A stretch of DNA of 64,000 bases, taken from positions 1,868,499 through 1,932,498 of the forward strand of contig NC_092565.1 of the NCBI RefSeq assembly GCF_037975245.1, in the 5' to 3' direction. Shown in pieces: positions 1 to 30,277 of the stretch. The translations under genes were made by a program, and so were the position numbers. Numbering within the stretch: the first letter of the stretch is position 1; every line of letters begins with the position of its first letter. Under the pieces are notes generated by a model. That model was given only the letters and a program-made list of their open reading frames with translations, was not told where the DNA came from and ran no database searches. The DNA is from Apostichopus japonicus. Taxonomy: Eukaryota; Echinodermata; Holothuroidea; Aspidochirotida; Stichopodidae.

Positions 1-1575
1 ATAAACAGCCTCAACCAATGTCTTTCGTCATACACTGCAGTCATTAGGCTGCAATTATTGTTCGAGAGGTTTCTGCAATACTTTTCATAGTGATGTAGTA
101 TAAACAGCCTCAACCAATGTCTCTCACCATACATTGCAATCAGTAGGCTGCAATCATTGTTCGAGAAGTTTCTGCAATACATTTAATAGTTATGTAAGTA
201 TAAACTCACTCAACTAATGTCTCTCACCAGACACTGCTATTAGTCAGCTGCAATCATTCTTCGAAAAGTTTCTGCAATACATTTCATAGTTATGTAAGTA
301 TAAACTCACTCAACTAATGTCTCTCACCATACACTGCAGTTAGTCAGCTGCAGTCATGTTCGAGAAGTTTCTGCAATACATTTAATAGTTTTGTAGTATA
401 AATTCCCTTAACAAAATGTCTATCACCAGATACTGCTATTAGTCAGCTGCAATCATTGTTCGAGAAGTTTCTGCAATACATTTCATAGTGTTGTAGTATA
501 AACAACCTCAACTAATGTCTCTCACCCTATAGTGCAGTGATCAGGCTGCAAACGTTGTTCGAGAAGTTTCTGCAATACATTTCATAGTTATTTAGAATAA
601 ACTCCCTCAACCAATGTCTCTCACCATACGCTGCAAGTCAGTAGGCTGCAATCATTGTTCGAGAGGTTTCTTCAATACATTTCATAGTTATGTAAGTATA
701 AACTCACTCAACTAATGTCTCTCACCATACACTGCAGTTAGTCAGCTGCAGTCATTGTTCGAGAAGTTTCTGCAATACATTTAATAGTTTTGTAGTATAA
801 ATTCCCTTAACAAAATGTCTATCACTATACACTGCTGTTAGTCAGCTGCAATCATTCTTCGAGAAGTTTCTGCAATACATTTCATAGTGTTGTAAGTATA
901 AACTCACTTAACAAATGTCTCTCACCATACTCTGCAGTCATTAGGCTGCAATCGTTGTTCGAGAAGTTCCTGCAATACATTTCATAGTTATGTAGAATAA
1001 ACTCCCTCAACCAATGTCTCTCACCATACACTGCAGTCATTAGGGTGCAATCATTGTTCGAGAGGTTTATGCAATACATTTCATAGTGATGTAGTATAAA
1101 CAGCCTCGACCAATGTCTCTCACCATACATTGCAATCAGTAGGCTGCAATCATTGTTCGAGAAGTTTCTGCAATACATTTAATAGTTATGTAAGTATAAA
1201 CTCACTCAACTAATGTCTCTCACCATACACTGCAGTTAGTCAGCTGCAGTCATTGTTCGAGAAGTTTCTGCAATACATTTAATAGTTTTGTAGTATAAAT
1301 TCCCTTAACAAAATGTCTATCACCATACACTGCTGTCAGTAAGCTGTAATCATTGTTCGAGAAGTTTTTGCAATACATTTCATAGTTTTGTAGAAAAAAC
1401 TCCTTCAACCAATGTCTCTCACCATACACTGCAGTCATTAGGCTGCAATCATTGTTCGAGAGGTTTCTGCAATACTTTTCATAGTGATGTAGTATAAACA
1501 GCCTCAACCAATGTCTCTCACCATACATTGCAATCAGTAGGCTGCAATCATTGTTCGAGAAGTTTCTGCAATACA
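1..1575 (-). repeat. 99-bp satellite array, orientation A
   Basis: Tandem monomers of about 99 bp with recurrent words such as CAATCATTGTTCGAGAAG, CTGCAATACATTTCATAG and AATGTCTCTCACCATACA. The minus strand keeps a mostly stop-free frame because 99 is divisible by 3, but indels of 1-2 bp and 20-40 bp partial monomers break it repeatedly. I treat it as satellite, not coding sequence. Confidence 0.97.
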
Positions 1576-4500
1576 TACAACACCTATGAAATGTATTGCA
1601 AAACCTCTCGAATAATGATTGCAGCCTACTTACTGCAATGTATGGTGTGAGACATTTGTTGAGTGAGTTTATGCTACATAACTATGAAATGTATTGCAAA
1701 GCCTCTCGAACAATGATTGTAGCCTAAAGACTGCAGTGTATGGTGAGAGACATTGGTTGAGGGAGTTTATGCTACATAACTATGAAATGTATTGCAAAAA
1801 CATCTCGAACAATGATTGCAGCCTACTTACTGCAATGTATGGTGAGAGACATGTTGAGGGAGTTAATTCTACATAACTAATGAAATGTATTGCAAAAGCT
1901 TTTCAAACAACGATTGCAGCCTACTGACTGCAATGTATAGTGAGAGACAAATGGTTGAGAGAGATTTTGATACAACACCTATGAAATGTTTGACGGAGTT
2001 TATTCTACATAACTATGAAATGCATTGCAAAAACTTCTCGAACAATGATTGCAGCCTACTAAGTTAATTCTACAAAAACTATGAAATGTATTGCAGAAGA
2101 TTTTCGAACAACGATTGCAGCCCGATGACTAATGTATAGTGAGAGACAATGGTTGAGAGAGATTATGCTACAACACCTATGAAATGTATTGCAAAACCTC
2201 TCGAACAATGATTTCAGCCTACTGACTGCAGTGTATGGTGAGAGACATTGGTTGAGGGAGTTTATGCTACAACACTATGGAATGTATTGCAAAACCTCTC
2301 GAACAATGATTGCAGCCTACTTACTGCAATGTATGGTGAGAGACAATGGTTGAGAGAGATTATGCTACAACACCTATGAAATGTATTGCAAAACCTCTCG
2401 AACAATGATTTCAGCCTACTGACTGCAGTGTATGGTGAGAGACATTGGTTGAGGGAGTTTATGCTACAACACTATGGAATGTATTGCAAAACCTCTCGAA
2501 CAATGATTGCAGCCTACTTACTGCAATGTATGGTGTGAGACATTTGTTGAGTGAGTTTATGCTACAACACTATGAAATGTATTGCAAAAACATCTCGAAC
2601 AATGATTGCAGCCTAGTGACTGCAGTGTACGGCGAGAGACATTGTTTGAGGTTGTTTATTCTACATAACTATGGAATGTATTGCAGAAACCTCGCGTACA
2701 ATGAATGCAGATTACTAACTGCAATGGATGGTGAGAGACATGTTGAGGGAGTTAATTCTACATAACTAATGAAATGTATTGCAGAAGCTTTTCAAACAAC
2801 GATTGCAGCCTACTGACTGCAATGTATAGTGAGAGACAAATGGTTGAGAGAGATTTTGATACAACACCTATGAAATGTTTGACGGAGTTTATTCTACATA
2901 ACTATGAAATGTATTGCAAAAACTTCTCGAACAATGATTGCAGCCTACTGAGTTAATTCTACAAAAACTATGAAATGTATTGCAGAAGATTTTCGAACAA
3001 CGATTGCAGCCCGATGACTAATGTATAGTGAGAGACAATGGTTGAGAGAGATTATGCTACAACACCTATGAAATGTATTGCAAAACCTCTCGAACAATGA
3101 TTTCAGCCTACTGACTGCAGTGTATGGTGAGAGACATTGGTTGAGGGAGTTTATGCTACAACACCTATGAAATGTATTGCAAAACCTCTCGAACAATGAT
3201 TTCAGCCTACTGACTGCAGTGTATGGTGAGAGACATTGGTTGAGGGAGTTTATGCTACAACACTATGAAATGTATTGCAAAACCTCTCGAACAATGGTTA
3301 CAGCCTACTGACTGCAGTGTATGGTGAGAGACATTGGTTTGAGGTTGTTAATGCTACATAACTATGAAATGTATTGCAAAGCCTCTCGAACAATGATTGT
3401 AGCCTAAAGACTGCAGTGTATGGTGAGAGACATTGGTTGAGGGAGTTTATGCTACATACCTATGAAATGTATTGCAAAAACATCTCGAACAATGATTGCA
3501 GCCTAGTGACTGCAGTGTACGGCGAGAGACATTGTTTGAGGTTGTTTATACTACATAACTATGAAATGTATTGCAGAAACTTCTCGCGCATGACTGCAGC
3601 TTACTAACTGCAATGGATGGTGAGAGACATGTTGAGGGAGTTAATTCTACATAACTATGAAATGTATTGCAGAAACTTCTCGAACAGTGATTGCAGCCTA
3701 CTTACTGCAATGTAGGGTGAGAGGCATTTGTTGAGTGAGTTTATGCTTACAACACCATGAAATGTATCGCAAAAACATCTTCGAACAATGATTGCAGCCT
3801 ACTGACTGAAGGGTAGGGTGAGAGACAACGGTTGAGGGAGTTTATTCTACATTACTATGAAATGTATTGCAAAAACTTCTCGAACAGTGATTGCAGCCTA
3901 CTGACTGCGATGTATGGTGAGAGACATAAGTTGAGAGAGTTTATTCTACATAACTATGAAATGAATTGCAGAAACCTCTCGAACAATGATTGCAGCTTAC
4001 TTACTGCAATGTGAGAGACATTGGTTGAGGTTGTTTATGCTACAACACTATCAAATGATGCGCAGAAACTTCTCGAACATCACTGCAGCTTACTAACTGC
4101 AATGCATGGTGAGAAACATTGGTTGAGGGAGTTTATGCTACAACACCATGAAATGTATTGCAAAAACATCTCGAACAATGATTGCAGCCTACTGACTGAA
4201 GGGTATGGTGAGAGACATTGGTCTAGGTTGTTTAAACTACATAACTATGAAATGTATTGCGGAAACTTCTCCAACAACGATTTCAGCTTATTTACTGCAA
4301 TGTATGGTGAGAGACAATGGTTGAGGTAGGTTATGCTACAACAACTATGAAATGTGTTGCAAAAACATCTCGAACAATGATTGCAGCTAACTTACTGCAA
4401 TGTAGGTTGAGAGACATTGGTTGAGGTTGTTCATATGATAGATGTATGAAATGTATTACAGAAACTTCTCTAACAAGGACTGTAGATTACTAACTGCAAG

Positions 4501-4655
4501 TGTAAGGTGTGAGAAATAAGGTGGAGTTTATTCTACATAAGAATGAAATGTATTGCAGAAACTGCTCGAACAATGATTGCAGCTATGAAATATTGCTGCA
4601 GAAACTTCTTGAACAATGATTGCGGCTTACGAACTACAATGAATGGTGGCTGCAA
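1576..4655 (+). repeat. 99-bp satellite array, reversed orientation B
   Basis: The same monomer family as 1-1575 but reverse-complemented: words such as ATGAAATGTATTGCAAAA and CTCGAACAATGATTGCAG now read on the plus strand. The flip occurs just after TGCAATACAT at 1566-1575, followed by a short linker and then ATGAAATGTATTGCA. The array decays toward its right end (4440-4655), where monomers are shortened and diverged before the core begins. Confidence 0.95.
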
Positions 4656-6635
4656 TGGGTTTTTTTCACAGAACAGAAAAAGGAAACTTTTTTGAAGATG
4701 GATCTTTGTAATCTGGTCATTTGATTTGCCATTTGCATGCAAAATACGCTCTATTCCAGTCTATGAAATAGAACCATAGGTCATACTTTTTGGGTAGGAC
4801 TTTTTTCAATGATTTGTGCTTCATTACAATAACAGAACAGAGAGCTTATAAGTGTTATTTTCACCATTTTATTTCTTTAAATGTTATGATAAACATCCTT
4901 ACATTTTCTGCAACATTTTCAAAAGGTTGTTCTTTACATCGAAATAACAATATATCAAAACGCTTTAAAGTTTTGGTCCTGTGTTTCTTAACGTCATTTG
5001 TCATGTTTATTTGTTTTTTGTTGTCTCGTCTGCAACATGTTGTGCTGACATCGTTATACCAATCGCTGAAATTGTTATCCTGCTATTTTAGCGAATCAAC
5101 ATTGAACGTTTTAATAAAACAATTATAGCGTTATCATTTCCTGAAATTTGAAGAACTTTTTGTGTTTGTTCATAACCGAGTTCGTGGTCAAACGTTTATT
5201 CATATCTGTTATTATACCAATTATACTATACAAAATACTTATCTGGTCATTCCCATACCATATGAATTCGAGCACCAATGCCAAATATTAAACGTTATTG
5301 TCATTGAGCACAATCCATTAGAGTAGGAAATGGTCTCTATATGTTGTTAATGTAATATGCGAATGACGAAATTATATCATAACGGTTAGTCGGTCGAAAA
5401 AAGTTTATAGTATGGCCAAGAGTGCCATGTGCAATTAAGACCGAACTGCCTGTTTACCGGCTTGGATAGGGCTCCAAACCTGTGAGAAGCACAGTTTTGA
5501 GAAGGGGCGTCTCCTTTCGCTTGACAACCATGAAAGGCACCGTTTCGCGGTGGGGTGACTCCTCCGTGAGTTTTTGATCGAAATAGCCTTTTCCACGAAA
5601 CGGATTGGGCTCCAAATTGGTGACACCCACCAATTCCTGGCGGGGTGCCTGATTATAATGAGGAGCACCCCAGTATATTTCCAACCGATCTTGAGACCAA
5701 TGGTGTGACCGTTTCTCGAATAATTGTCTCGTCTCGCCCAGAGGAGCGTTTTGGACCAAAATGACCTGTTCCCCGTCCCAGATTGTTCTCCGCCTTCAAT
5801 GGGGCTCGAATATGGTGGTACAAACAAATTCACGGAGGGGTTCTCGGACTAGATGTGGCTCGAAGCTGTTGGCATCAATTCCTGGAGGGGTGACTCGTTT
5901 CACGGAGAAGGGCAATCCTTGCGTTTTCAACTGAAACTGAATGTTCTTCGTCCCCAGATTTAACTTGAATCTTGTTGACAGGTACCGTTTCCCAGAGCGG
6001 CGACTCCCCTCACCGACAGATGCATAGGCATCGAAAGTCTTCACGGAGGAGTAAATGATCTCGCAATAAGCTCCGCAGTTTGGTCCCGAAACTGTTCGCA
6101 CCCACCGATTCACGAAGGAGTGTCTCCTCTTGCGATGGGAGCACCCAGGTGAATCACAAGGCGAAGTGCTTCCTTCGGCGAGACTGCACACCCCTCGGGG
6201 AAACGACCAGTTTCGAGATCCGTTTGGGAAAAAAGCTTCTTCCAAACAATTTTGATCCCATGATGAGGGGCGGGGTTCATTCCCTAATTGGGACGGGAGA
6301 AAGCTCCGTGAAACTGCATCATTCCACGTGTTTTGAGACACCGTTTTGATATTATTTCGTCGTTCGCATATGACATTTACAGCCAGTTCCTACTTTAAAG
6401 GAGTTGTGCCGTATGACAAAGACACAATAATAATGATTTCTCATTGTGGTGGCTGTCATTAAAGCCTATCACAAATTAACAAGTCTGAGAATTACCAGGT
6501 AAAAACAGCCAACGAACACTTAATGTTATTCATATTTCAGGTAATGAACCCTGGAAAGAAATTACCTCAATGGGACATTCAAACATTATTTGTGTTCATT
6601 CGTCGGAGAACAATTTGGAGAGTAAAGACCTCTAA
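4656..6635. other. Non-satellite core of macro-repeat, copy 1
   Basis: About 2 kb without 99-bp monomers. The left part (4656-5430) is AT-rich with no recognisable gene; the open frame at 4790-5128 has no features of a known protein. The middle (about 5440-6345) is GC-richer with degenerate short repeats. The right edge (about 6540-6633) matches part of the dispersed TTGGCCCC repeat found at 31.5-37 kb, including the words GTGTTCATT, CGTCGGAGAACAATTTGGAG and AGTAAAGACCTC. The whole core is present again at 14158-16137. Confidence 0.9.
5440..6345 (-). repeat. GC-rich degenerate minisatellite in core (copy 1)
   Basis: Imperfect short repeats built on motifs like TTCACGGAGGGGTGACTC and GGGCTCCAAA recur at irregular spacings, several near 50 bp or multiples of it (for example at about 5500, 5551, 5641, 5836, 5886, 5997 and 6115). 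On the minus strand one frame is open from 6341 down to 5454 except for a single TGA at 5796-5798. Its translation shows a recurring pattern of the type P-x(4-6)-V-x-x-T-x-[LF]-E-P. I recognise no protein family. It may be repeat-generated or the remnant of a repetitive coding exon. Confidence 0.6.
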
Positions 6636-7766
6636 AAATGTCTCTAATCATACATTGCAGTTAGTCAGCTGCAATCATTATTCGAGAAGTTTCTGCAACA
6701 CATTTCATATAGTGTTGTAGTATAAATCAACCTCAACTAATGTCTCTCACCCTACATTGCAGTCAGTAGGCTGCAATCATTGTTCGAGAAGTTCTTGCAA
6801 TACATTTAACAGGTGTTGTAGTGTAATCTTCATCAAACATTGTCTCTTACCATACATTGCGGTTAATAAGCTGCAATCGTTGTTCGAGAAGTTTCTGCAA
6901 TACATTTCATAGTCATGTAGCATAATCTCCCTCAACCATTGTCTCTCACCATACATTGCAGTCAGTAGGGCTGCGATCATTGTTCGAGAAGTTTTTGCAA
7001 TACATTTAACAGGTGTTGTAGCATAATCTTCCTCAAACATTGTCTCTTACCATACATTGCGGTTAATAAGCTGCAATCATTGTTCGAGAAGTTTCTGCAA
7101 TACATTACATAGTGATGTAGTATAAACAACCTCAACCAATGTCTCTCACCAAAGACTGAAGTCAGTAAGCTGCTATTATACATTTCATAGTTTTGTAGTA
7201 TAAACAGCCTCAACCACAGTCTCTCACCATACATTGCAGTTAGTAAGCTGCTATACATTTCATGGTTATGTAGAATCAACTCACTCAACAAATGTATCTC
7301 ATCATGCATTGCAGTCAGTAAGCTGCAATCATTGTTCGAGAGGTTTTTGCAATACATTTCATAGGTGTTGTAGCATTACTCACTCAACCATTGTATCTCA
7401 CCATACATTGCAGGTTAGTAAGCTGAAGTCATTGTTCGAGAAGTTTCTGCAGTACATTTCATAGTTATGTAGCAAAATCTCCCTCAACCATTGTCTGTCA
7501 CCAATACATTTCAGTCAGTAGGCTGCAAACATTGTTCGAGAAGTTTCTGCAATACATTTCATAGTAATGTAGTATAAACTACCTCAACCAATGTCTCTCA
7601 CAAAAGACTGAAGTCAGTAAGCTGCTATTATACATTTCATAGTTTTGTAGTATAAACAGCCTCAACCACAGTCTCTCACCATACATTGCAGTCAGTAGGC
7701 TGCAATCACTTCTCAAAAAGTTTCTGCAATACATTGAATAGTTATGTAGAATCAACTCACTCAACA

Positions 7767-9525
7767 AATGTCTCTCACCATACACTGCAGTTCGTCAGCT
7801 GCAATCATTATTCGAGAAGTTTGTGCAATACATTTCATATTTATGTAGAATAAACTCACTCAACAAATGTCTCTCATCATGCAATGCAGTCAGTAAGCTG
7901 CCAATCATTGTTCGAGAAGTTTCTGCAATACATAGTTATGTAGTATAAACTCCCTGAACCAATGTCTCTCACCACAAAGACTGAAGTCAGTAGGCTGCAG
8001 TCATTGTTCGAGAAGTTCCTGAAATACATTTCATAGTTATTTAGAATAAACTCCCTCAACCAATGTCTCTCACCATACGCTGCATTCATTAGGCTACAAT
8101 CATTGTTCCAGAGGTTTCTGCAATACTTTTCAAAGTGATGTAGTATAAACAGCCTCAACCAATGTCTCTCACAATACATTGCAATCAGTAGGCTGCAATC
8201 ATTGTTCGAGAAGTTTCTGCAATACATTTCATAGTTATGTAAGCATAAACTCACTCAACAAATGTCTCTCACCATACACTGCAGTTAGTCAGCTGCAGTC
8301 ATTGTTCGAGAAGTTTCTGCAATACATTTCATGGTTCAGGGAGTTTATACTACATAACCATACATTGCAGTCAGTAAGCTGTAATCATTGTTCGAGAAGT
8401 TTTTGCAATACATTTCATAGTTTTGAAGAAAAAACTCCTTCAACCAATGTCTCTCACCATACACTGCAGTTCGTCAGCTGCAATCATTATTCGAGAAGTT
8501 TGTGCAATACATTTCATATTTATGTAGAATAAACTCACTCAACAAATGTCTCTCATCATGCAATGCAGTCAGTAAGCTGCCAATCATTGTTCGAGAAGTT
8601 TCTGCAATACATAGTTATGTAGTATAAACTCCCTGAACCAATGTCTCTCACCACAAAGACTGAAGTCAGTAGGCTGCAGTCATTGTTCGAGAAGTTCCTG
8701 AAATACATTTCATAGTTATTTAGAATAAACTCCCTCAACCAATGTCTCTCACCATACGCTGCATTCATTAGGCTACAATCATTGTTCCAGAGGTTTCTGC
8801 AATACTTTTCAAAGTGATGTAGTATAAACAGCCTCAACCAATGTCTCTCACAATACATTGCAATCAGTAGGCTGCAATCATTGTTCGAGAAGTTTCTGCA
8901 ATACATTTCATAGTTATGTAAGCATAAACTCACTCAACAAATGTCTCTCACCATACACTGCAGTTAGTCAGCTGCAGTCATTGTTCGAGAAGTTTCTGCA
9001 ATACATTTCATGGTTCAGGGAGTTTATACTACATAACCATACATTGCAGTCAGTAAGCTGTAATCATTGTTCGAGAAGTTTTTGCAATACATTTCATAGT
9101 TTTGAAGAAAAAACTCCTTCAACCAATGTCTCTCACCATACACTGCAGTTCGTCAGCTGCAATCATTATTCGAGAAGTTTGTGCAATACATTTCATAGTG
9201 ATGTAGAATAAACTCACTCAACAAATGTCTCTCATCATGCAATGCAGTCAGTAAGCTGCCAATCATTGTTCGAGAAGTTTCTGCAATACATAGTTATGTA
9301 GTATAAACTCCCTGAACCAATGTCTCTCACCACAAAGACTGAAGTCAGTAGACTGCAAACATTGTTCGAGAAGTTCCTGAAATACATTTCATAGTTATTT
9401 AGAATAAATTCCCTCAACCAATGTCTCTCACCATACGCTGCATTCATTAGGCTACAATCATTGTTCCAGAGGTTTCTGCAATACTTTTCATAGTGATGTA
9501 GTATAAACAGCCTCAACCAATGTCT
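7767..9525. repeat. 679-bp higher-order repeat, about 2.6 copies
   Basis: Sequence at 7788 recurs at 8467 and 9146, an exact 679-bp spacing corresponding to about seven monomers. The third copy carries small differences (for example ATTTCATAGTGATG instead of ATTTCATATTTATG) and ends when it joins the motif that begins the macro-unit. The same block is present in macro-unit copy 2 at about 17269-19027. Confidence 0.93.
8331..8361. repeat. Micro-inverted monomer segment (type example)
   Basis: The 31 bp starting ATGGTTCAGGGAG and ending ACATAACCAT are the reverse complement of the corresponding segment in ordinary monomers (from about GTTATGTAGTATAAACTC to CTGAACCAAT). Just after it, the usual GTCTCTCACC is missing. 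The same variant starts at 9010, 17833, 18512, 20982, 21366, 22321, 24099, 27468 and 29127. Confidence 0.88.
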
Positions 9526-11077
9526 TTCGTCATACACTGCAGTCATTAGGCTGCAATTATTGTTCGAGAGGTTTCTGCAATACTTTTCATAGTGATGTAG
9601 TATAAACAGCCTCAACCAATGTCTCTCACCATACATTGCAATCAGTAGGCTGCAATCATTGTTCGAGAAGTTTCTGCAATACATTTAATAGTTATGTAAG
9701 TATAAACTCACTCAACTAATGTCTCTCACCAGACACTGCTATTAGTCAGCTGCAATCATTCTTCGAAAAGTTTCTGCAATACATTTCATAGTTATGTAAG
9801 TATAAACTCACTCAACTAATGTCTCTCACCATACACTGCAGTTAGTCAGCTGCAGTCATGTTCGAGAAGTTTCTGCAATACATTTAATAGTTTTGTAGTA
9901 TAAATTCCCTTAACAAAATGTCTATCACCAGATACTGCTATTAGTCAGCTGCAATCATTGTTCGAGAAGTTTCTGCAATACATTTCATAGTGTTGTAGTA
10001 TAAACAACCTCAACTAATGTCTCTCACCCTATAGTGCAGTGATCAGGCTGCAAACGTTGTTCGAGAAGTTTCTGCAATACATTTCATAGTTATTTAGAAT
10101 AAACTCCCTCAACCAATGTCTCTCACCATACGCTGCAAGTCAGTAGGCTGCAATCATTGTTCGAGAGGTTTCTTCAATACATTTCATAGTTATGTAAGTA
10201 TAAACTCACTCAACTAATGTCTCTCACCATACACTGCAGTTAGTCAGCTGCAGTCATTGTTCGAGAAGTTTCTGCAATACATTTAATAGTTTTGTAGTAT
10301 AAATTCCCTTAACAAAATGTCTATCACTATACACTGCTGTTAGTCAGCTGCAATCATTCTTCGAGAAGTTTCTGCAATACATTTCATAGTGTTGTAAGTA
10401 TAAACTCACTTAACAAATGTCTCTCACCATACTCTGCAGTCATTAGGCTGCAATCGTTGTTCGAGAAGTTCCTGCAATACATTTCATAGTTATGTAGAAT
10501 AAACTCCCTCAACCAATGTCTCTCACCATACACTGCAGTCATTAGGGTGCAATCATTGTTCGAGAGGTTTATGCAATACATTTCATAGTGATGTAGTATA
10601 AACAGCCTCGACCAATGTCTCTCACCATACATTGCAATCAGTAGGCTGCAATCATTGTTCGAGAAGTTTCTGCAATACATTTAATAGTTATGTAAGTATA
10701 AACTCACTCAACTAATGTCTCTCACCATACACTGCAGTTAGTCAGCTGCAGTCATTGTTCGAGAAGTTTCTGCAATACATTTAATAGTTTTGTAGTATAA
10801 ATTCCCTTAACAAAATGTCTATCACCATACACTGCTGTCAGTAAGCTGTAATCATTGTTCGAGAAGTTTTTGCAATACATTTCATAGTTTTGTAGAAAAA
10901 ACTCCTTCAACCAATGTCTCTCACCATACACTGCAGTCATTAGGCTGCAATCATTGTTCGAGAGGTTTCTGCAATACTTTTCATAGTGATGTAGTATAAA
11001 CAGCCTCAACCAATGTCTCTCACCATACATTGCAATCAGTAGGCTGCAATCATTGTTCGAGAAGTTTCTGCAATACA

Positions 11078-14000
11078 TACAACACCTATGAAATGTATTG
11101 CAAAACCTCTCGAATAATGATTGCAGCCTACTTACTGCAATGTATGGTGTGAGACATTTGTTGAGTGAGTTTATGCTACATAACTATGAAATGTATTGCA
11201 AAGCCTCTCGAACAATGATTGTAGCCTAAAGACTGCAGTGTATGGTGAGAGACATTGGTTGAGGGAGTTTATGCTACATAACTATGAAATGTATTGCAAA
11301 AACATCTCGAACAATGATTGCAGCCTACTTACTGCAATGTATGGTGAGAGACATGTTGAGGGAGTTAATTCTACATAACTAATGAAATGTATTGCAAAAG
11401 CTTTTCAAACAACGATTGCAGCCTACTGACTGCAATGTATAGTGAGAGACAAATGGTTGAGAGAGATTTTGATACAACACCTATGAAATGTTTGACGGAG
11501 TTTATTCTACATAACTATGAAATGTATTGCAAAAACTTCTCGAACAATGATTGCAGCCTACTAAGTTAATTCTACAAAAACTATGAAATGTATTGCAGAA
11601 GATTTTCGAACAACGATTGCAGCCCGATGACTAATGTATAGTGAGAGACAATGGTTGAGAGAGATTATGCTACAACACCTATGAAATGTATTGCAAAACC
11701 TCTCGAACAATGATTTCAGCCTACTGACTGCAGTGTATGGTGAGAGACATTGGTTGAGGGAGTTTATGCTACAACACTATGGAATGTATTGCAAAACCTC
11801 TCGAACAATGATTGCAGCCTACTTACTGCAATGTATGGTGAGAGACAATGGTTGAGAGAGATTATGCTACAACACCTATGAAATGTATTGCAAAACCTCT
11901 CGAACAATGATTTCAGCCTACTGACTGCAGTGTATGGTGAGAGACATTGGTTGAGGGAGTTTATGCTACAACACTATGGAATGTATTGCAAAACCTCTCG
12001 AACAATGATTGCAGCCTACTTACTGCAATGTATGGTGTGAGACATTTGTTGAGTGAGTTTATGCTACAACACTATGAAATGTATTGCAAAAACATCTCGA
12101 ACAATGATTGCAGCCTAGTGACTGCAGTGTACGGCGAGAGACATTGTTTGAGGTTGTTTATTCTACATAACTATGGAATGTATTGCAGAAACCTCGCGTA
12201 CAATGAATGCAGATTACTAACTGCAATGGATGGTGAGAGACATGTTGAGGGAGTTAATTCTACATAACTAATGAAATGTATTGCAGAAGCTTTTCAAACA
12301 ACGATTGCAGCCTACTGACTGCAATGTATAGTGAGAGACAAATGGTTGAGAGAGATTTTGATACAACACCTATGAAATGTTTGACGGAGTTTATTCTACA
12401 TAACTATGAAATGTATTGCAAAAACTTCTCGAACAATGATTGCAGCCTACTGAGTTAATTCTACAAAAACTATGAAATGTATTGCAGAAGATTTTCGAAC
12501 AACGATTGCAGCCCGATGACTAATGTATAGTGAGAGACAATGGTTGAGAGAGATTATGCTACAACACCTATGAAATGTATTGCAAAACCTCTCGAACAAT
12601 GATTTCAGCCTACTGACTGCAGTGTATGGTGAGAGACATTGGTTGAGGGAGTTTATGCTACAACACCTATGAAATGTATTGCAAAACCTCTCGAACAATG
12701 ATTTCAGCCTACTGACTGCAGTGTATGGTGAGAGACATTGGTTGAGGGAGTTTATGCTACAACACTATGAAATGTATTGCAAAACCTCTCGAACAATGGT
12801 TACAGCCTACTGACTGCAGTGTATGGTGAGAGACATTGGTTTGAGGTTGTTAATGCTACATAACTATGAAATGTATTGCAAAGCCTCTCGAACAATGATT
12901 GTAGCCTAAAGACTGCAGTGTATGGTGAGAGACATTGGTTGAGGGAGTTTATGCTACATACCTATGAAATGTATTGCAAAAACATCTCGAACAATGATTG
13001 CAGCCTAGTGACTGCAGTGTACGGCGAGAGACATTGTTTGAGGTTGTTTATACTACATAACTATGAAATGTATTGCAGAAACTTCTCGCGCATGACTGCA
13101 GCTTACTAACTGCAATGGATGGTGAGAGACATGTTGAGGGAGTTAATTCTACATAACTATGAAATGTATTGCAGAAACTTCTCGAACAGTGATTGCAGCC
13201 TACTTACTGCAATGTAGGGTGAGAGGCATTTGTTGAGTGAGTTTATGCTTACAACACCATGAAATGTATCGCAAAAACATCTTCGAACAATGATTGCAGC
13301 CTACTGACTGAAGGGTAGGGTGAGAGACAACGGTTGAGGGAGTTTATTCTACATTACTATGAAATGTATTGCAAAAACTTCTCGAACAGTGATTGCAGCC
13401 TACTGACTGCGATGTATGGTGAGAGACATAAGTTGAGAGAGTTTATTCTACATAACTATGAAATGAATTGCAGAAACCTCTCGAACAATGATTGCAGCTT
13501 ACTTACTGCAATGTGAGAGACATTGGTTGAGGTTGTTTATGCTACAACACTATCAAATGATGCGCAGAAACTTCTCGAACATCACTGCAGCTTACTAACT
13601 GCAATGCATGGTGAGAAACATTGGTTGAGGGAGTTTATGCTACAACACCATGAAATGTATTGCAAAAACATCTCGAACAATGATTGCAGCCTACTGACTG
13701 AAGGGTATGGTGAGAGACATTGGTCTAGGTTGTTTAAACTACATAACTATGAAATGTATTGCGGAAACTTCTCCAACAACGATTTCAGCTTATTTACTGC
13801 AATGTATGGTGAGAGACAATGGTTGAGGTAGGTTATGCTACAACAACTATGAAATGTGTTGCAAAAACATCTCGAACAATGATTGCAGCTAACTTACTGC
13901 AATGTAGGTTGAGAGACATTGGTTGAGGTTGTTCATATGATAGATGTATGAAATGTATTACAGAAACTTCTCTAACAAGGACTGTAGATTACTAACTGCA

Positions 14001-14157
14001 AGTGTAAGGTGTGAGAAATAAGGTGGAGTTTATTCTACATAAGAATGAAATGTATTGCAGAAACTGCTCGAACAATGATTGCAGCTATGAAATATTGCTG
14101 CAGAAACTTCTTGAACAATGATTGCGGCTTACGAACTACAATGAATGGTGGCTGCAA
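11078..14157 (+). repeat. 99-bp satellite array, orientation B (copy 2)
   Basis: Counterpart of 1576-4655, shifted by 9,502 bp, with the same flip junction, the same monomer order and the same degraded right end. Confidence 0.95.
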
Positions 14158-16137
14158 TGGGTTTTTTTCACAGAACAGAAAAAGGAAACTTTTTTGAAGA
14201 TGGATCTTTGTAATCTGGTCATTTGATTTGCCATTTGCATGCAAAATACGCTCTATTCCAGTCTATGAAATAGAACCATAGGTCATACTTTTTGGGTAGG
14301 ACTTTTTTCAATGATTTGTGCTTCATTACAATAACAGAACAGAGAGCTTATAAGTGTTATTTTCACCATTTTATTTCTTTAAATGTTATGATAAACATCC
14401 TTACATTTTCTGCAACATTTTCAAAAGGTTGTTCTTTACATCGAAATAACAATATATCAAAACGCTTTAAAGTTTTGGTCCTGTGTTTCTTAACGTCATT
14501 TGTCATGTTTATTTGTTTTTTGTTGTCTCGTCTGCAACATGTTGTGCTGACATCGTTATACCAATCGCTGAAATTGTTATCCTGCTATTTTAGCGAATCA
14601 ACATTGAACGTTTTAATAAAACAATTATAGCGTTATCATTTCCTGAAATTTGAAGAACTTTTTGTGTTTGTTCATAACCGAGTTCGTGGTCAAACGTTTA
14701 TTCATATCTGTTATTATACCAATTATACTATACAAAATACTTATCTGGTCATTCCCATACCATATGAATTCGAGCACCAATGCCAAATATTAAACGTTAT
14801 TGTCATTGAGCACAATCCATTAGAGTAGGAAATGGTCTCTATATGTTGTTAATGTAATATGCGAATGACGAAATTATATCATAACGGTTAGTCGGTCGAA
14901 AAAAGTTTATAGTATGGCCAAGAGTGCCATGTGCAATTAAGACCGAACTGCCTGTTTACCGGCTTGGATAGGGCTCCAAACCTGTGAGAAGCACAGTTTT
15001 GAGAAGGGGCGTCTCCTTTCGCTTGACAACCATGAAAGGCACCGTTTCGCGGTGGGGTGACTCCTCCGTGAGTTTTTGATCGAAATAGCCTTTTCCACGA
15101 AACGGATTGGGCTCCAAATTGGTGACACCCACCAATTCCTGGCGGGGTGCCTGATTATAATGAGGAGCACCCCAGTATATTTCCAACCGATCTTGAGACC
15201 AATGGTGTGACCGTTTCTCGAATAATTGTCTCGTCTCGCCCAGAGGAGCGTTTTGGACCAAAATGACCTGTTCCCCGTCCCAGATTGTTCTCCGCCTTCA
15301 ATGGGGCTCGAATATGGTGGTACAAACAAATTCACGGAGGGGTTCTCGGACTAGATGTGGCTCGAAGCTGTTGGCATCAATTCCTGGAGGGGTGACTCGT
15401 TTCACGGAGAAGGGCAATCCTTGCGTTTTCAACTGAAACTGAATGTTCTTCGTCCCCAGATTTAACTTGAATCTTGTTGACAGGTACCGTTTCCCAGAGC
15501 GGCGACTCCCCTCACCGACAGATGCATAGGCATCGAAAGTCTTCACGGAGGAGTAAATGATCTCGCAATAAGCTCCGCAGTTTGGTCCCGAAACTGTTCG
15601 CACCCACCGATTCACGAAGGAGTGTCTCCTCTTGCGATGGGAGCACCCAGGTGAATCACAAGGCGAAGTGCTTCCTTCGGCGAGACTGCACACCCCTCGG
15701 GGAAACGACCAGTTTCGAGATCCGTTTGGGAAAAAAGCTTCTTCCAAACAATTTTGATCCCATGATGAGGGGCGGGGTTCATTCCCTAATTGGGACGGGA
15801 GAAAGCTCCGTGAAACTGCATCATTCCACGTGTTTTGAGACACCGTTTTGATATTATTTCGTCGTTCGCATATGACATTTACAGCCAGTTCCTACTTTAA
15901 AGGAGTTGTGCCGTATGACAAAGACACAATAATAATGATTTCTCATTGTGGTGGCTGTCATTAAAGCCTATCACAAATTAACAAGTCTGAGAATTACCAG
16001 GTAAAAACAGCCAACGAACACTTAATGTTATTCATATTTCAGGTAATGAACCCTGGAAAGAAATTACCTCAATGGGACATTCAAACATTATTTGTGTTCA
16101 TTCGTCGGAGAACAATTTGGAGAGTAAAGACCTCTAA
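14158..16137. other. Non-satellite core of macro-repeat, copy 2
   Basis: Counterpart of 4656-6635. It includes the AT-rich left part, the GC-rich degenerate minisatellite (about 14942-15847, with the single TGA interrupting the minus frame now at 15298-15300) and the dispersed-repeat fragment at the right edge (about 16042-16135). No gene is recognised. Confidence 0.9.
14942..15847 (-). repeat. GC-rich degenerate minisatellite in core (copy 2)
   Basis: Counterpart of 5440-6345, shifted by 9,502 bp. The minus-strand translations of the two copies are the same, so the nearly open frame was duplicated intact with its one stop. Confidence 0.6.
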
Positions 16138-17268
16138 AAATGTCTCTAATCATACATTGCAGTTAGTCAGCTGCAATCATTATTCGAGAAGTTTCTGCAA
16201 CACATTTCATATAGTGTTGTAGTATAAATCAACCTCAACTAATGTCTCTCACCCTACATTGCAGTCAGTAGGCTGCAATCATTGTTCGAGAAGTTCTTGC
16301 AATACATTTAACAGGTGTTGTAGTGTAATCTTCATCAAACATTGTCTCTTACCATACATTGCGGTTAATAAGCTGCAATCGTTGTTCGAGAAGTTTCTGC
16401 AATACATTTCATAGTCATGTAGCATAATCTCCCTCAACCATTGTCTCTCACCATACATTGCAGTCAGTAGGGCTGCGATCATTGTTCGAGAAGTTTTTGC
16501 AATACATTTAACAGGTGTTGTAGCATAATCTTCCTCAAACATTGTCTCTTACCATACATTGCGGTTAATAAGCTGCAATCATTGTTCGAGAAGTTTCTGC
16601 AATACATTACATAGTGATGTAGTATAAACAACCTCAACCAATGTCTCTCACCAAAGACTGAAGTCAGTAAGCTGCTATTATACATTTCATAGTTTTGTAG
16701 TATAAACAGCCTCAACCACAGTCTCTCACCATACATTGCAGTTAGTAAGCTGCTATACATTTCATGGTTATGTAGAATCAACTCACTCAACAAATGTATC
16801 TCATCATGCATTGCAGTCAGTAAGCTGCAATCATTGTTCGAGAGGTTTTTGCAATACATTTCATAGGTGTTGTAGCATTACTCACTCAACCATTGTATCT
16901 CACCATACATTGCAGGTTAGTAAGCTGAAGTCATTGTTCGAGAAGTTTCTGCAGTACATTTCATAGTTATGTAGCAAAATCTCCCTCAACCATTGTCTGT
17001 CACCAATACATTTCAGTCAGTAGGCTGCAAACATTGTTCGAGAAGTTTCTGCAATACATTTCATAGTAATGTAGTATAAACTACCTCAACCAATGTCTCT
17101 CACAAAAGACTGAAGTCAGTAAGCTGCTATTATACATTTCATAGTTTTGTAGTATAAACAGCCTCAACCACAGTCTCTCACCATACATTGCAGTCAGTAG
17201 GCTGCAATCACTTCTCAAAAAGTTTCTGCAATACATTGAATAGTTATGTAGAATCAACTCACTCAACA

Positions 17269-19027
17269 AATGTCTCTCACCATACACTGCAGTTCGTCAG
17301 CTGCAATCATTATTCGAGAAGTTTGTGCAATACATTTCATATTTATGTAGAATAAACTCACTCAACAAATGTCTCTCATCATGCAATGCAGTCAGTAAGC
17401 TGCCAATCATTGTTCGAGAAGTTTCTGCAATACATAGTTATGTAGTATAAACTCCCTGAACCAATGTCTCTCACCACAAAGACTGAAGTCAGTAGGCTGC
17501 AGTCATTGTTCGAGAAGTTCCTGAAATACATTTCATAGTTATTTAGAATAAACTCCCTCAACCAATGTCTCTCACCATACGCTGCATTCATTAGGCTACA
17601 ATCATTGTTCCAGAGGTTTCTGCAATACTTTTCAAAGTGATGTAGTATAAACAGCCTCAACCAATGTCTCTCACAATACATTGCAATCAGTAGGCTGCAA
17701 TCATTGTTCGAGAAGTTTCTGCAATACATTTCATAGTTATGTAAGCATAAACTCACTCAACAAATGTCTCTCACCATACACTGCAGTTAGTCAGCTGCAG
17801 TCATTGTTCGAGAAGTTTCTGCAATACATTTCATGGTTCAGGGAGTTTATACTACATAACCATACATTGCAGTCAGTAAGCTGTAATCATTGTTCGAGAA
17901 GTTTTTGCAATACATTTCATAGTTTTGAAGAAAAAACTCCTTCAACCAATGTCTCTCACCATACACTGCAGTTCGTCAGCTGCAATCATTATTCGAGAAG
18001 TTTGTGCAATACATTTCATATTTATGTAGAATAAACTCACTCAACAAATGTCTCTCATCATGCAATGCAGTCAGTAAGCTGCCAATCATTGTTCGAGAAG
18101 TTTCTGCAATACATAGTTATGTAGTATAAACTCCCTGAACCAATGTCTCTCACCACAAAGACTGAAGTCAGTAGGCTGCAGTCATTGTTCGAGAAGTTCC
18201 TGAAATACATTTCATAGTTATTTAGAATAAACTCCCTCAACCAATGTCTCTCACCATACGCTGCATTCATTAGGCTACAATCATTGTTCCAGAGGTTTCT
18301 GCAATACTTTTCAAAGTGATGTAGTATAAACAGCCTCAACCAATGTCTCTCACAATACATTGCAATCAGTAGGCTGCAATCATTGTTCGAGAAGTTTCTG
18401 CAATACATTTCATAGTTATGTAAGCATAAACTCACTCAACAAATGTCTCTCACCATACACTGCAGTTAGTCAGCTGCAGTCATTGTTCGAGAAGTTTCTG
18501 CAATACATTTCATGGTTCAGGGAGTTTATACTACATAACCATACATTGCAGTCAGTAAGCTGTAATCATTGTTCGAGAAGTTTTTGCAATACATTTCATA
18601 GTTTTGAAGAAAAAACTCCTTCAACCAATGTCTCTCACCATACACTGCAGTTCGTCAGCTGCAATCATTATTCGAGAAGTTTGTGCAATACATTTCATAG
18701 TGATGTAGAATAAACTCACTCAACAAATGTCTCTCATCATGCAATGCAGTCAGTAAGCTGCCAATCATTGTTCGAGAAGTTTCTGCAATACATAGTTATG
18801 TAGTATAAACTCCCTGAACCAATGTCTCTCACCACAAAGACTGAAGTCAGTAGACTGCAAACATTGTTCGAGAAGTTCCTGAAATACATTTCATAGTTAT
18901 TTAGAATAAATTCCCTCAACCAATGTCTCTCACCATACGCTGCATTCATTAGGCTACAATCATTGTTCCAGAGGTTTCTGCAATACTTTTCATAGTGATG
19001 TAGTATAAACAGCCTCAACCAATGTCT
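17269..19027. repeat. 679-bp higher-order repeat in macro-unit copy 2
   Basis: Counterpart of 7767-9525. Repeats are spaced 679 bp apart (for example the micro-inverted monomers at 17833 and 18512). Confidence 0.92.
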
Positions 19028-20579
19028 TTCGTCATACACTGCAGTCATTAGGCTGCAATTATTGTTCGAGAGGTTTCTGCAATACTTTTCATAGTGATGT
19101 AGTATAAACAGCCTCAACCAATGTCTCTCACCATACATTGCAATCAGTAGGCTGCAATCATTGTTCGAGAAGTTTCTGCAATACATTTAATAGTTATGTA
19201 AGTATAAACTCACTCAACTAATGTCTCTCACCAGACACTGCTATTAGTCAGCTGCAATCATTCTTCGAAAAGTTTCTGCAATACATTTCATAGTTATGTA
19301 AGTATAAACTCACTCAACTAATGTCTCTCACCATACACTGCAGTTAGTCAGCTGCAGTCATGTTCGAGAAGTTTCTGCAATACATTTAATAGTTTTGTAG
19401 TATAAATTCCCTTAACAAAATGTCTATCACCAGATACTGCTATTAGTCAGCTGCAATCATTGTTCGAGAAGTTTCTGCAATACATTTCATAGTGTTGTAG
19501 TATAAACAACCTCAACTAATGTCTCTCACCCTATAGTGCAGTGATCAGGCTGCAAACGTTGTTCGAGAAGTTTCTGCAATACATTTCATAGTTATTTAGA
19601 ATAAACTCCCTCAACCAATGTCTCTCACCATACGCTGCAAGTCAGTAGGCTGCAATCATTGTTCGAGAGGTTTCTTCAATACATTTCATAGTTATGTAAG
19701 TATAAACTCACTCAACTAATGTCTCTCACCATACACTGCAGTTAGTCAGCTGCAGTCATTGTTCGAGAAGTTTCTGCAATACATTTAATAGTTTTGTAGT
19801 ATAAATTCCCTTAACAAAATGTCTATCACTATACACTGCTGTTAGTCAGCTGCAATCATTCTTCGAGAAGTTTCTGCAATACATTTCATAGTGTTGTAAG
19901 TATAAACTCACTTAACAAATGTCTCTCACCATACTCTGCAGTCATTAGGCTGCAATCGTTGTTCGAGAAGTTCCTGCAATACATTTCATAGTTATGTAGA
20001 ATAAACTCCCTCAACCAATGTCTCTCACCATACACTGCAGTCATTAGGGTGCAATCATTGTTCGAGAGGTTTATGCAATACATTTCATAGTGATGTAGTA
20101 TAAACAGCCTCGACCAATGTCTCTCACCATACATTGCAATCAGTAGGCTGCAATCATTGTTCGAGAAGTTTCTGCAATACATTTAATAGTTATGTAAGTA
20201 TAAACTCACTCAACTAATGTCTCTCACCATACACTGCAGTTAGTCAGCTGCAGTCATTGTTCGAGAAGTTTCTGCAATACATTTAATAGTTTTGTAGTAT
20301 AAATTCCCTTAACAAAATGTCTATCACCATACACTGCTGTCAGTAAGCTGTAATCATTGTTCGAGAAGTTTTTGCAATACATTTCATAGTTTTGTAGAAA
20401 AAACTCCTTCAACCAATGTCTCTCACCATACACTGCAGTCATTAGGCTGCAATCATTGTTCGAGAGGTTTCTGCAATACTTTTCATAGTGATGTAGTATA
20501 AACAGCCTCAACCAATGTCTCTCACCATACATTGCAATCAGTAGGCTGCAATCATTGTTCGAGAAGTTTCTGCAATACA
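19005..20579. repeat. Partial third copy of the 9,502-bp unit
   Basis: It matches unit positions 1-1575. At 20579, where the full unit flips into reversed monomers, this copy instead continues in orientation A with sequence like unit position ~170 onward. The third copy therefore ends exactly at the inversion junction, without the reversed arm or the core. Confidence 0.93.
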
Positions 20580-22093
20580 TTTAATAGTTATGTAAGTATA
20601 AACTCACTCAACTAATGTCTCTCACCAGACACTGCTATTAGTCAGCTGCAATCATTCTTCGAAAAGTTTCTGCAATACATTTCATAGTTATGTAAGTATA
20701 AACTCACTCAACTAATGTCTCTCACCATACACTGCAGTTAGTCAGCTGCAGTCATGTTCCAGAGGTTTCTGCAATACTTTTCATAGTGATGTAGTATAAA
20801 CAGCCTCAACCAATGTCTCTCACAATACATTGCAATCAGTAGGCTGCAATCATTGTTCGAGAAGTTTCTGCAATACATTTCATAGTTATGTAAGCATAAA
20901 CTCACTCAACAAATGTCTCTCACCATACACTGCAGTTAGTCAGCTGCAGTCATTGTTCGAGAAGTTTCTGCAATACATTTCATGGTTCAGGGAGTTTATA
21001 CTACATAACCATACATTGCAGTCAGTAAGCTGTAATCATTGTTCGAGAAGTTTCTGCAATACATTTAATAGTTATGTAGAATAAACTCCTTCAACCAATG
21101 TTTCTCGTCATACACTGCTGTCATTAGGCTGCAATCATTGTTCGAGAGGTTTTTGCAATACATTTCATAGTGATGTAGTAAAAACAGCCTCAACCAATGT
21201 CTCTCACAATACATTGCAATCAGTAGGCTGCAATCATTGTTCGAGAAGTTTCTGCAATACATTTCATAGTGATGTAAGTATAAACTCACTCAACTAATGT
21301 CTCTCACCATACACTGCAGTGATTAGGCTGCAATCGTTGTTCGAGAAGTTTCTGCAATACATTTCATGGTTCAGGGAGTTTATACTACATAACCATACAT
21401 TGCAGTCATCAGGCTGCAATCATTGTTCGAGAGGTTTCTGCAATACATTTCATAGTGATGTAGTATAAACAGCCTCAACCAATGTCTTTCGTCATACACT
21501 GCAGTCATTAGGCTGCAATCATTGTTCGAGAGGTTTCTGCAATACTTTTCATAGTGATGTAGTATAAACAGCCTCAACCAATGTCTCTCACCAAAGACTG
21601 AAGTCAGTAAGCTGCTATTATACATTTCATAGTTTTGTAGTATAAACAGCCTCAACCACAGTCTCTCACCATACATTGCAGTCAGTAGGCTGCAATCACT
21701 TCTCAAAAAGTTTCTGCAATACATTGAATAGTTATGTAGAATCAACTCACTCAACAAATGTCTCTCACCATACACTGCAGTTCGTCAGCTGCAATCATTA
21801 TTCGAGAAGTTTGTGCAATACATTTCATATTTATGTAGAATAAACGCACTCAACAAATGTCTCTCATCATGCAATGTAGTCAGTAAGCTGCCAATCATTG
21901 TTCGAGAAGTTTCTGCAATACATAGTTATGTAGTATAAACTCCCTGAACCAATGTCTCTCACCACAAAGACTGAAGTCAGTAGGCTGCAGTCATTGTTCG
22001 AGAAGTTCCTGAAATACATTTCATAGTTATTTAGAATAAACTCCCTCAACCAATGTCTCTCACCATACGCTGCATTCATTAGGCTACAATCAT

Positions 22094-25000
22094 TGTTCCA
22101 GAGGTTTCTGCAATACTTTTCATAGTGATGTAGTATAAACAGCCTCGACCAATGTCTCTCACAATACATTGCAATCAGTAGGCTGCAATCATTGTTCGAG
22201 AAGTTTCTGCAATACATTTCATAGTTATGTAAGCATAAACTCACTCAACAAATGTCTCTCACCATACACTGCAGTTAGTCAGCTGCAGTCATTGTTCGAG
22301 AAGTTTCTGCAATACATTTCATGGTTCAGGGAGTTTATACTACATAACCATACATTGCAGTCAGTAAGCTGTAATCATTGTTCGAGAAGTTTTTGCAATA
22401 CATTTCATAGTTTTGTAGAAAAAACTCCTTCAACCAATGTCTCTCACCATACATTGCAGTCAGTAGGCTGCAATCATTTCTCAAGAAGTTTCTGCAATAC
22501 ATTTAATAGTTATGTAGAATCAACTCACTCAACAAATGTCTCTCACCATGCATTGTAGTTAGTAGGCTGCAGTAATTGTTCGAGAAGTTTCTGCAATACA
22601 TTTCATAGTTATGTAGAAACAACTTCTTCAACCAATGTCTCTCACCATACATTGCAAGTCAGTAGGCTGCAATCATTGTTCGAGAAGTTTCTTCAATACA
22701 TTTCATAGTTATGTAAGTATAAACTCACTCAACTAATGTCTCTCACCATACACTGCAGTTAGTCAGCTGCAGTCATTGTTCGAGAAGTTTCTGCAATACA
22801 TTTAATAGTTTTGTAGTATAAATTCCCTTAACAAAATGTCTATCACTATACACTGCTGTTAGTCAGCTGCAATCATTCTTCGAGAAGTTTCTGCAATACA
22901 TTTCATAGTGTTGTAAGTATAAACTCACTTAACAAATGTCTCTCACCATACTCTGCAGTCATTAGGCTGCAATCGTTGTTCGAGAAGTTTCTGCAATACA
23001 TTTCATAGTTATGTAGAATAAACTCCCTCAACCAATGTCTCTCACCATACACTGCAGTCATTAGGGTGCAATCATTGTTCGAGAGGTTTATGCAATACAT
23101 TTCATAGTGATGTAGTATAAAACAGCCTCGACCAATGTCTCTCACCATACATTGCAATCAGTAGGCTGCAATCATTGTTCGAGAAGTTTCTGCAATACAT
23201 TTAATAGTTATGTAAGTATAAACTCACTCAACTAATGTCTCTCACCATACACTGCAGTTAGTCAGCTGCAGTCATTGTTCGAGAAGTTTCTGCAATACAT
23301 TTAATAGTTTTGTAGTATAAATTCCCTTAACAAAATGTCTATCACCATACACTGCTGTCAGTAAGCTGTAATCATTGTTCGAGAAGTTTTTGCAATACAT
23401 TTCATAGTTTTGTAGAAAAAACTCCTTCAACCAATGTCTCTCACCATACACTGCAGTCATTAGGCTGCAATCATTGTTCGAGAGGTTTCTGCAATACATT
23501 TCATAGTGATGTAGTATAAACAGCCTCAACCAATGTCTTTCGTCATACACTGCAGTCATTAGGCTGCAATTATTGTTCGAGAGGTTTCTGCAATACTTTT
23601 CATAGTGATGTAGTATAAACAGCCTCAACCAATGTCTCTCACCATACATTGCAATCAGTAGGCTGCAATCATTGTTCGAGAAGTTTCTGCAATACATTTA
23701 ATAGTTATGTAAGTATAAACTCACTCAACTAATGTCTCTCACCAGACACTGCTATTAGTCAGCTGCAATCATTCTTCGAAAAGTTTCTGCAATACATTTC
23801 ATAGTTATGTAAGTATAAACTCACTCAACTAATGTCTCTCACCATACACTGCAGTTAGTCAGCTGCAGTCATGTTCCAGAGGTTTCTGCAATACTTTTCA
23901 TAGTGATGTAGTATAAACAGCCTCAACCAATGTCTCTCACAATACATTGCAATCAGTAGGCTGCAATCATTGTTCGAGAAGTTTCTGCAATACATTTCAT
24001 AGTTATGTAAGCATAAACTCACTCAACAAATGTCTCTCACCATACACTGCAGTTAGTCAGCTGCAGTCATTGTTCGAGAAGTTTCTGCAATACATTTCAT
24101 GGTTCAGGGAGTTTATACTACATAACCATACATTGCAGTCAGTAAGCTGTAATCATTGTTCGAGAAGTTTTTGCCATACATTTCATAGTTTTGTAGAAAA
24201 AACTCCTTCAACCAATGTCTCTCACCATACATTGCAGTCAGTAGGCTGCAATCATTTCTCAAGAAGTTTCTGCAATACATTTAATAGTTATGTAGAATCA
24301 ACTCACTCAACAAATGTCTCTCACCATGCATTGTAGTTAGTAGGCTGCAGTAATTGTTCGAGAAGTTTCTGCAATACATTTCATAGTTATGTAGAAACAA
24401 CTTCTTCAACCAATGTCTCTCACCATACATTGCAAGTCAGTAGGCTGCAATCATTGTTCGAGAAGTTTCTTCAATACATTTCATAGTTATGTAAGTATAA
24501 ACTCACTCAACTAATGTCTCTCACCATACACTGCAGTTAGTCAGCTGCAGTCATTGTTCGAGAAGTTTCTGCAATACATTTAATAGTTTTGTAGTATAAA
24601 TTCCCTTAACAAAATGTCTATCACTATACACTGCTGTTAGTCAGCTGCAATCATTCTTCGAGAAGTTTCTGCAATACATTTCATAGTGTTGTAAGTATAA
24701 ACTCACTTAACAAATGTCTCTCACCATACTCTGCAGTCATTAGGCTGCAATCGTTGTTCGAGAAGTTTCTGCAATACATTTCATAGTTATGTAGAATAAA
24801 CTCCCTCAACCAATGTCTCTCACCATACACTGCAATCAGTAGGCTGCAATCATTGTTCGAGAAGTTTCTGCAATACATTTAATAGTTATGTAAGTATAAA
24901 CTCACTCAACTAATGTCTCTCACCATACACTGCAGTTAGTCAGCTGCAGTCATTGTTCGAGAAGTTTCTGCAATACATTTAATAGTTTTGTAGTATAAAT

Positions 25001-25549
25001 TCCCTTAACAAAATGTCTATCACCATACACTGCTGTCAGTAAGCTGTAATCATTGTTCGAGAAGTTTTTGCAATACATTTCATAGTTTTGTAGAAAAAAC
25101 TCCCTCAACAAATGTCTCTCACAATACACTGCAGTCATTAGGCTGCAATCATTGTTCGAGAGGTTTCTGCAATACATTTCATAGTGATGTAGTATAAACA
25201 GCCTCAACCAATGTCTTTCGTCATACACTGCAGTCATTAGGCTGCAATTATTGTTCGAGAGGTTTCTGCAATACTTTTCATAGTGATGTAGTATAAACAG
25301 CCTCAACCAATGTCTCTCACCATACATTGCAATCAGTAGGCTGCAATCATTGTTCGAGAAGTTTCTGCAATACATTTAATAGTTATGTAAGTATAAACTC
25401 ACTCAACTAATGTCTCTCACCAGACACTGCTATTAGTCAGCTGCAATCATTCTTCGAAAAGTTTCTGCAATACATTTCATAGTTATGTAAGTATAAACTC
25501 ACTCAACTAATGTCTCTCACCATACACTGCAGTTAGTCAGCTGCAGTCA
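22094..25549. repeat. 1,778-bp higher-order repeat, two copies
   Basis: The word TTCCAGAGGTTTCTGC and the following ~1.7 kb at 22094 recur at 23872. The second copy is about 100 bp shorter because roughly one monomer is missing: matches are offset by 1,778 bp at 22903/24681 but by 1,678 bp at 23272/24950. Another partial version starts near 20757. Confidence 0.88.
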
Positions 25550-30255: not shown

Positions 30256-30277
30256 ATTTTACATGTTGAAAGATATG

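Follow-up and report, generated by a model that had tools for sequence, protein, structure and literature searches.

The window analysed here, a stretch of 64,000 nucleotides of the Apostichopus japonicus genome (C5:1,868,499-1,932,498, C5 being contig NC_092565.1 of assembly GCF_037975245.1), carries ~2-kb cores between oppositely oriented arrays of a 99-bp satellite, which are enclosed by a much larger palindrome. It belongs to a dispersed, layered, foldback-like repeat family. With moderate confidence, the C5 stretch is read as the triplicated central part of a foldback-like repeat, giant and layered, that was dispersed in the past, was amplified locally and has arms copying each other. The unit is best read as a relic or non-autonomous giant foldback-like unit, and active transposition is unsupported. 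From the outside to the inside it would consist of an outer arm made of 1.3-2.2 kb tandem units, the 99-bp satellite, a short inner inverted repeat and a GC-rich cassette middle. The full order of layers is seen at C5; only the two outer layers, with the same polarity and the same right-hand junction, are seen at a sister locus on C14.

Window position p corresponds to C5 position p + 1,868,498, and negative positions lie to the left of the window. The genome searched comprises 671,581,487 bases on 35 contigs and for each genome search the best 40 candidates at most were scored. The lists of loci are therefore lower bounds: a satellite search, in which 11 of 15 candidates were scored, missed C14 and one cassette search missed C23.

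Satellite arms and the 9.5-kb tandem array

A profile of the 99-bp monomer gave 411 matches in 94 kb, i.e., the window and 30 kb to its left, and these fall into six strand-pure blocks (Table 1). The program TRF agrees, reporting a satellite period of 99-100. As the six blocks alternate in strand, the stretch does not follow the head-to-tail, single-strand plan of a plain satellite array. The two outer 99-bp arrays contain 118 and 137 profile matches. Three cores, one of them left of the window, were found, each at a switch from the plus to the minus strand. The sequence-only reading of this DNA had proposed a ~2-kb core between oppositely oriented 99-bp arms, which is borne out by the strand blocks, and its core limits of 4656-6635 came close and are refined to 4661-6623.

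The cores are part of a tandem array that is young and has a period of 9,502 bp, its copies being 99.96-99.99% identical. Positions 1-11078 equal 9503-20580 at 99.99% identity and 1576-9502 matches the copy on its left at 99.96%. At an offset of 9,502, 499 or 500 of 500 bases are equal in each of 30 consecutive bins from C5:1,864,499, and an offset of 9,504 accounts for the array copy further left. The segment 1576-9502, earlier regarded as a unit in itself, is thus one period of this array, with an arm that continues to 11078; it is a tandem duplication and not a transposed unit. The junction at 1576 is identical to one parent site (20,580) through that base and to the other (-7,928 onward) from it. 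Since the two parent sites sit in opposite arms of the palindrome, the first duplication would not have arisen by ordinary homologous recombination. The third array copy can have originated from unequal crossing-over.

The enclosing palindrome and the evolution of its arms

The larger palindrome around the satellites spans C5:1.8436-1.9091 Mb, ~66 kb, with ~20-25 kb on each side. Its arms are 99.2% identical in the outermost part and, in the best pieces, 86-96% further in, and the satellite arms are unmirrored. Inside the outermost segment, 38310-40560 (2.25 kb) corresponds to a dispersed element. The two arm copies of this element are 99% alike, the three longest matches elsewhere (C15, C17 and C5:2.10 Mb) are 94-96% identical and shorter pieces elsewhere 73-98%. 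As the two C5 arms match each other better here than they match the copies elsewhere, one insertion was probably copied into both arms, and a recent exchange of sequence between the outermost arms seems to have taken place. A 132-bp tandem repeat is found twice in the outer arm (33847-34272 and 36033-36458). Many chromosomes carry it in short arrays, which hints at a mobile element containing an internal tandem repeat.

Table 1. Positions of the repeat layers in and beside the window
Feature	Position	Strand	Length	Basis and remarks
Satellite block	-16488..-4844	+	11,645 bp	Monomer profile
Satellite block	-2878..1576	-	4,455 bp	Monomer profile and TRF; 1..1576 is its end, the unit starting left of the window
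Duplication junction, S- arm meets S+ arm	1576..1583	.		Compared with both parent sites; 1 base in common
S+ satellite arm	1584..4660	+	3,077 bp	Monomer profile; on reading the sequence, monomers grow irregular nearer the core
Core, second of three	4661..6623	.		Genome search and monomer profile
Dispersed-repeat piece in core	4706..4811	+		81-87% identity at at least 37 places besides the three cores (best 40 of 1,573 candidates)
Second inner inverted repeat	5134..5170	+		Partner 6511-6547; 81% over 37 bp
Inner inverted repeat A (left)	5298..5386	+		Partner 6340-6419; 74% over 90 columns, E 4e-12; relatives on C21 and C23
Degenerate ~100-bp GC-rich cassette array	5425..6333	.		Profile searches; + through 6151, then two weak - copies
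Inner inverted repeat A' (right)	6340..6419	-		Partner of 5298-5386
S- satellite arm	6624..11078	-	4,455 bp	Monomer profile
S+ satellite arm, third unit	11086..14162	+	3,077 bp	Monomer profile
Core, third	14163..16125	.		Genome search and monomer profile
Long terminal S- satellite arm	16126..29490	-	13,365 bp	Monomer profile
Right outer arm, tandem 1.3-2.2 kb units	29491..37330	+		Inverted copies of parts of -21636..-16482, 86-94% in the best pieces
Right outer arm	37007..38175	+	1,172 bp	Inverted copy of -22462..-21312, 95.6%
Outermost arm segment	38047..40567	+	2,521 bp	Inverted copy of -24913..-22398, 99.2%
Last arm-type repeat on the right	40567..40844	+

For the comparison of single monomers, 356 monomers spanning at least 90% of the model were used and shorter ones were dropped. 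The mean best-match identity is 0.955-0.989 within an array, 0.90-0.92 across the two arms of one locus and 0.85-0.89 between C5 and C14. The satellite arms flanking the core pair at ~78%. No mirrored monomer order was detected between the long outer arrays using best matches of 106 and 123 monomers (Spearman -0.05, a value reached by 175 of 1,000 rotations); all monomer pairs show a very small mirror trend (rho -0.026, p 0.003). The high identity within arrays, together with the unmirrored order, points to a satellite turnover taking place mainly within arms.

The sister locus on C14

At C14:3.571-3.612 Mb, outer-arm clusters lie on the minus strand at 3.571-3.580 Mb and on the plus strand at 3.600-3.612 Mb. 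Six samples from between them (10,550 bases), four S+ on the left and two S- on the right, consist entirely of the 99-bp satellite, except for the final ~80 bases of one right-hand sample (L041). The strand switch falls within the unsampled interval 3,592,881-3,593,800, i.e., within at most 0.92 kb. The right satellite-to-arm junction was found to be homologous to that of C5, with a score of 58.5 compared to a maximum of 19.5 in 100 shuffles. C5 and C14 therefore have in common the order of outer arm, 99-bp satellite, switch, inverted satellite and inverted outer arm.

The core and its GC-rich cassettes

The whole core is found at three places in the genome, all at the C5 array. It had been described as unique, which does not hold for its parts, as it contains a dispersed repeat (4706-4811) and cassettes that are also found at other loci. 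The cassette unit measures ~100-103 bp. A cassette model gave 207 matches at E up to 1 in 154 kb, confined to the cores of C5, C21 and C23; within these 154 kb, no match was obtained in stretches L010, L011, L022, L025 and L026. The cassettes run on the plus and then mostly on the minus strand in C5 and C21, and C23 shows more than one switch. A coding function of the cassettes is not supported, as no Pfam domain was found in the two core frames tested. They were also considered as structured RNA, which was rejected: the consensus fold has a z of -1.36, with 16 of 200 shuffles as good, and an alignment of 32 cassettes yields no consensus pairs. An Rfam scan of the window returned nothing reaching gathering scores.

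Cassettes were identified at seven further loci, namely two on C2 and one each on C11, C12, C15, C18 and C20, for each of which 7-10 kb were read. The C18 locus has one 180-bp inverted pair. At C15 (C15:8992001-9001000) almost 9 kb of one-strand cassettes are arranged in higher-order units of ~591 and 884 bp. The large cassette array at C2:7328501-7338500 switches from the minus to the plus strand at ~6.9 kb and thereby forms a separate cassette palindrome, the arms of which are ~65-74% alike.

Relatives on other chromosomes

C21:6.891-6.928 Mb encompasses a cassette core that has a higher-order unit of 2,216 bp and lies between inverted arms of a different satellite of ~281-340 bp, and it carries its own 10.7-kb tandem duplication (99.6%). 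Just beyond its right arm, from C21:6927637 onward, a different tandem repeat with TCT-rich blocks about every 260 bp is found. C23:5.730-5.750 Mb contains a cassette core with a 146-bp satellite on its left and a ~345-bp satellite on its right. Inner repeat A, the cassettes and arm pieces are common to C21, C23 and C5, with repeat A and the arm pieces ~62-82% identical to C5, and parts of the C21 and C23 satellites look like amplified arm sequence. The polarity of the arm units towards the centre is identical at C5, C14, C21 and C23, the loci with a known centre. Pieces related to the 146-bp satellite match at many points over hundreds of kb at C3:10.78-11.23 Mb and C18:11.45-11.70 Mb; these possibly represent centromere arrays.

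Some candidates were discarded. C22:23.62-23.68 Mb carries the same 99-bp satellite, but all on one strand, and was rejected as a palindrome; C22:23614001-23684000 contains five blocks of 0.5-1.0 kb that have the same flanks and are spaced at 10-18 kb within duplicated units. C16:1.417 Mb and C20:10.896 Mb turned out to be chance pattern hits, neither of which has a core match. C7 and C16:25.378 Mb hold minor satellite scraps.

Origin of the C5 structure and alternative explanations

For the layered foldback-like repeat, the following course of events is proposed. The unit may once have spread through the genome, as a non-autonomous element of the foldback type or through segmental duplication. 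Parts of the arms would then have been amplified in place into satellites through unequal exchange inside each arm, and arm-to-arm copying would have kept or made the outermost arms alike and placed one dispersed element in each of them. In a final step, the middle of the C5 structure, together with ~3 kb and 4.5 kb of satellite, would have been duplicated via the breakpoint with one shared base, and unequal crossing-over would have raised this duplication to three copies, giving the repeating 9.5-kb unit.

Several observations weigh against this proposal. The outward rise in arm identity draws on true partners and on adjacent tandem copies alike, and within the outer arm a bin of 500 bp lacks a match over 200 bp. 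Pieces of the arms are dispersed repeats present at high copy number (first-look candidates numbered 3,837 and 1,181, the best 40 of each being scored), so part of the kinship between loci may reflect shared insertions. No defined ends were found at C5, where other sequence abuts the left end. No convincing target duplication at the ends, for which the sequence-only reading had proposed to look, could be identified at C5 either: the longest direct match is 10 bp, A/T-rich, and 200 shuffles reach 11 with a mean of 8.2. With regard to a transposase, no Pfam domain was found in the five frames tested. C14 has no room for a 2-kb core, given the narrow interval of its strand switch, and the core is thus not an obligatory component of the unit. 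Inverted satellite arms are absent from the stretches read at the seven cassette loci, where the flanks at C15 and at the first C2 locus lie partly outside the reads (the C15 cassettes fill the entire read and the first C2 array continues beyond the right end). By the criterion of the sequence-only reading itself, the presence of the whole core at this locus alone speaks against a mobile unit. At C21 the right outer arm was not encountered within the 50 kb read, C23 has unlike sides, and the kinship of C19 (one minus cluster and two plus hits 47 kb away) and of C6 and C8 (plus hits only) is weak. The foldback nature suggested earlier stands as far as the architecture is concerned, which is real, far larger than proposed and has outer layers that recur at C14; of the marks of transposition, neither a convincing target duplication nor, in the five frames tested, a Pfam domain was found.

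An active or recently active foldback transposon of the FB, TU, Galileo or Tetris type, with a transposase acting on long inverted ends, would explain why the inverted arms are modular, contain a tandem-repeat domain and enclose a middle, a plan also present in Tetris according to the cited passages of PMC4079207, as well as the likeness of the outer layers at two loci. It is considered unlikely, as the marks expected of it (a convincing target duplication, defined ends, a Pfam domain in the five frames tested) were not found, as 40-66 kb is far above the Tetris arms of up to 1.7 kb given there (PMC4079207), and as the C5 and C14 monomers are ~11-15% apart even in best matches, which argues against a recent hop between them. 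That no mobility marks were found is in line with a plain palindrome, i.e., a repeat-rich region that was segmentally duplicated in inverted orientation and is kept alike by gene conversion, involving no element, C14 being a segmental duplicate of C5. The 99.2% identity of the outermost arm with its shared insertion and the homologous C14 junction also fit this explanation, for which there is a possible, if clearly smaller, case; the core relatives between other satellites at C21 and C23 and the one-strand arm clusters on C6 and C8 suggest a dispersal wider than one duplication.

An assembly artefact, in which the assembler produced the near-exact triplication, is very improbable. Three successive near-exact 9.5-kb copies would be hard to span with the mean read length of 14.7 kb stated for the published HiFi assembly of A. 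japonicus (PMC10344927, in the part cited). The doubt is limited to the copy number of the 9.5-kb unit, as C14 also has inverted satellite arms and the outer arms show divergence. Least probable is that such layered palindromes mark regional centromeres or pericentromeres on the plan known from fission yeast or Candida tropicalis, a core with inverted repeats, where every chromosome would have amplified a private arm satellite. A core flanked by inverted arms would be consistent with this, as would the occurrence of arm clusters or cassettes at at least 14 places on 13 chromosomes (scored candidates 6/6, 40/54 and 40/1,181), counts that are lower bounds from the best candidates, follow a post hoc grouping and leave out the short arm pieces (mostly query 4-283) dispersed on many chromosomes. 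The 13 places other than C5 are based on hits alone for C6, C8 and C19, on six samples for C14 and on stretches of 7-50 kb for the rest. If 23 chromosomes are equally likely, the simulated chance of at least 13 distinct ones is 0.06. Against a centromeric role, the large 146-bp arrays on C3 and C18 are alternative candidates and C14 lacks a core.

Comparison with known systems and significance

FB, Galileo and the sea-urchin TU are foldback elements of kilobase scale that resemble the C5 structure in having long inverted repeats made of sub-repeats. Galileo is described as possessing a transposase; the C5 structure differs in size and may differ in its ends and coding content. Closest in plan is Tetris, a foldback transposon of Drosophila virilis, for which the cited passages report three complete copies only and no transposase found (PMC4079207). 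They describe inverted arms of three domains (outer flanking, ~220-bp tandem repeats and inner) around a variable non-coding middle, and a tandem domain that expands into satellite DNA, both in likeness to C5 (PMC4079207). Tetris arms are given there as at most 1.7 kb with 8-10 bp target duplications (PMC4079207), whereas the C5 sides measure ~20-25 kb and neither a convincing target duplication nor defined ends were found. Human Y palindromes are comparable as large inverted repeats with arm-to-arm copying, but their arms are stated to be >99.9% identical (PMC3723533, in the part cited), while at C5 99.2% is reached in the outermost 2.5 kb only, with 86-96% in the rest and ~78% in the satellite arms, and the arms consist of repeats. 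Centromeres of Candida tropicalis are similarly described as inverted repeats around a centre (PMC4741521, PMC7292649, in the parts cited); they differ in that C14 has no core, and the C5 family may not be confined to one locus per chromosome. Among the top-ranked results of a literature search, which covered few subscription journals, no such layered family was described.

One genome thus shows several steps: the amplification of arm pieces into locus-private satellites, the copying between palindrome arms and the formation of a higher-order unit from a near-blunt junction. If true, a foldback-like repeat of 40-66 kb, present at two loci that have one junction in common, would mean that the connection of foldback elements with satellites known from Tetris also holds at a far larger scale and probably in echinoderms. 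How inverted satellite arms originate would thereby become directly testable in related species.

Other repeats in the window

To the right of the palindrome, 46697-47305 holds a 151-bp and a 138-bp tandem repeat, both diverged, near each other. Further right, 48261-49697 is a minisatellite with 59% GC, a G-skew of +0.6 to +0.7 and units of 21, 42 and 292 bp, the minus strand of which has a 510-aa open frame made almost entirely of the minisatellite repeat.

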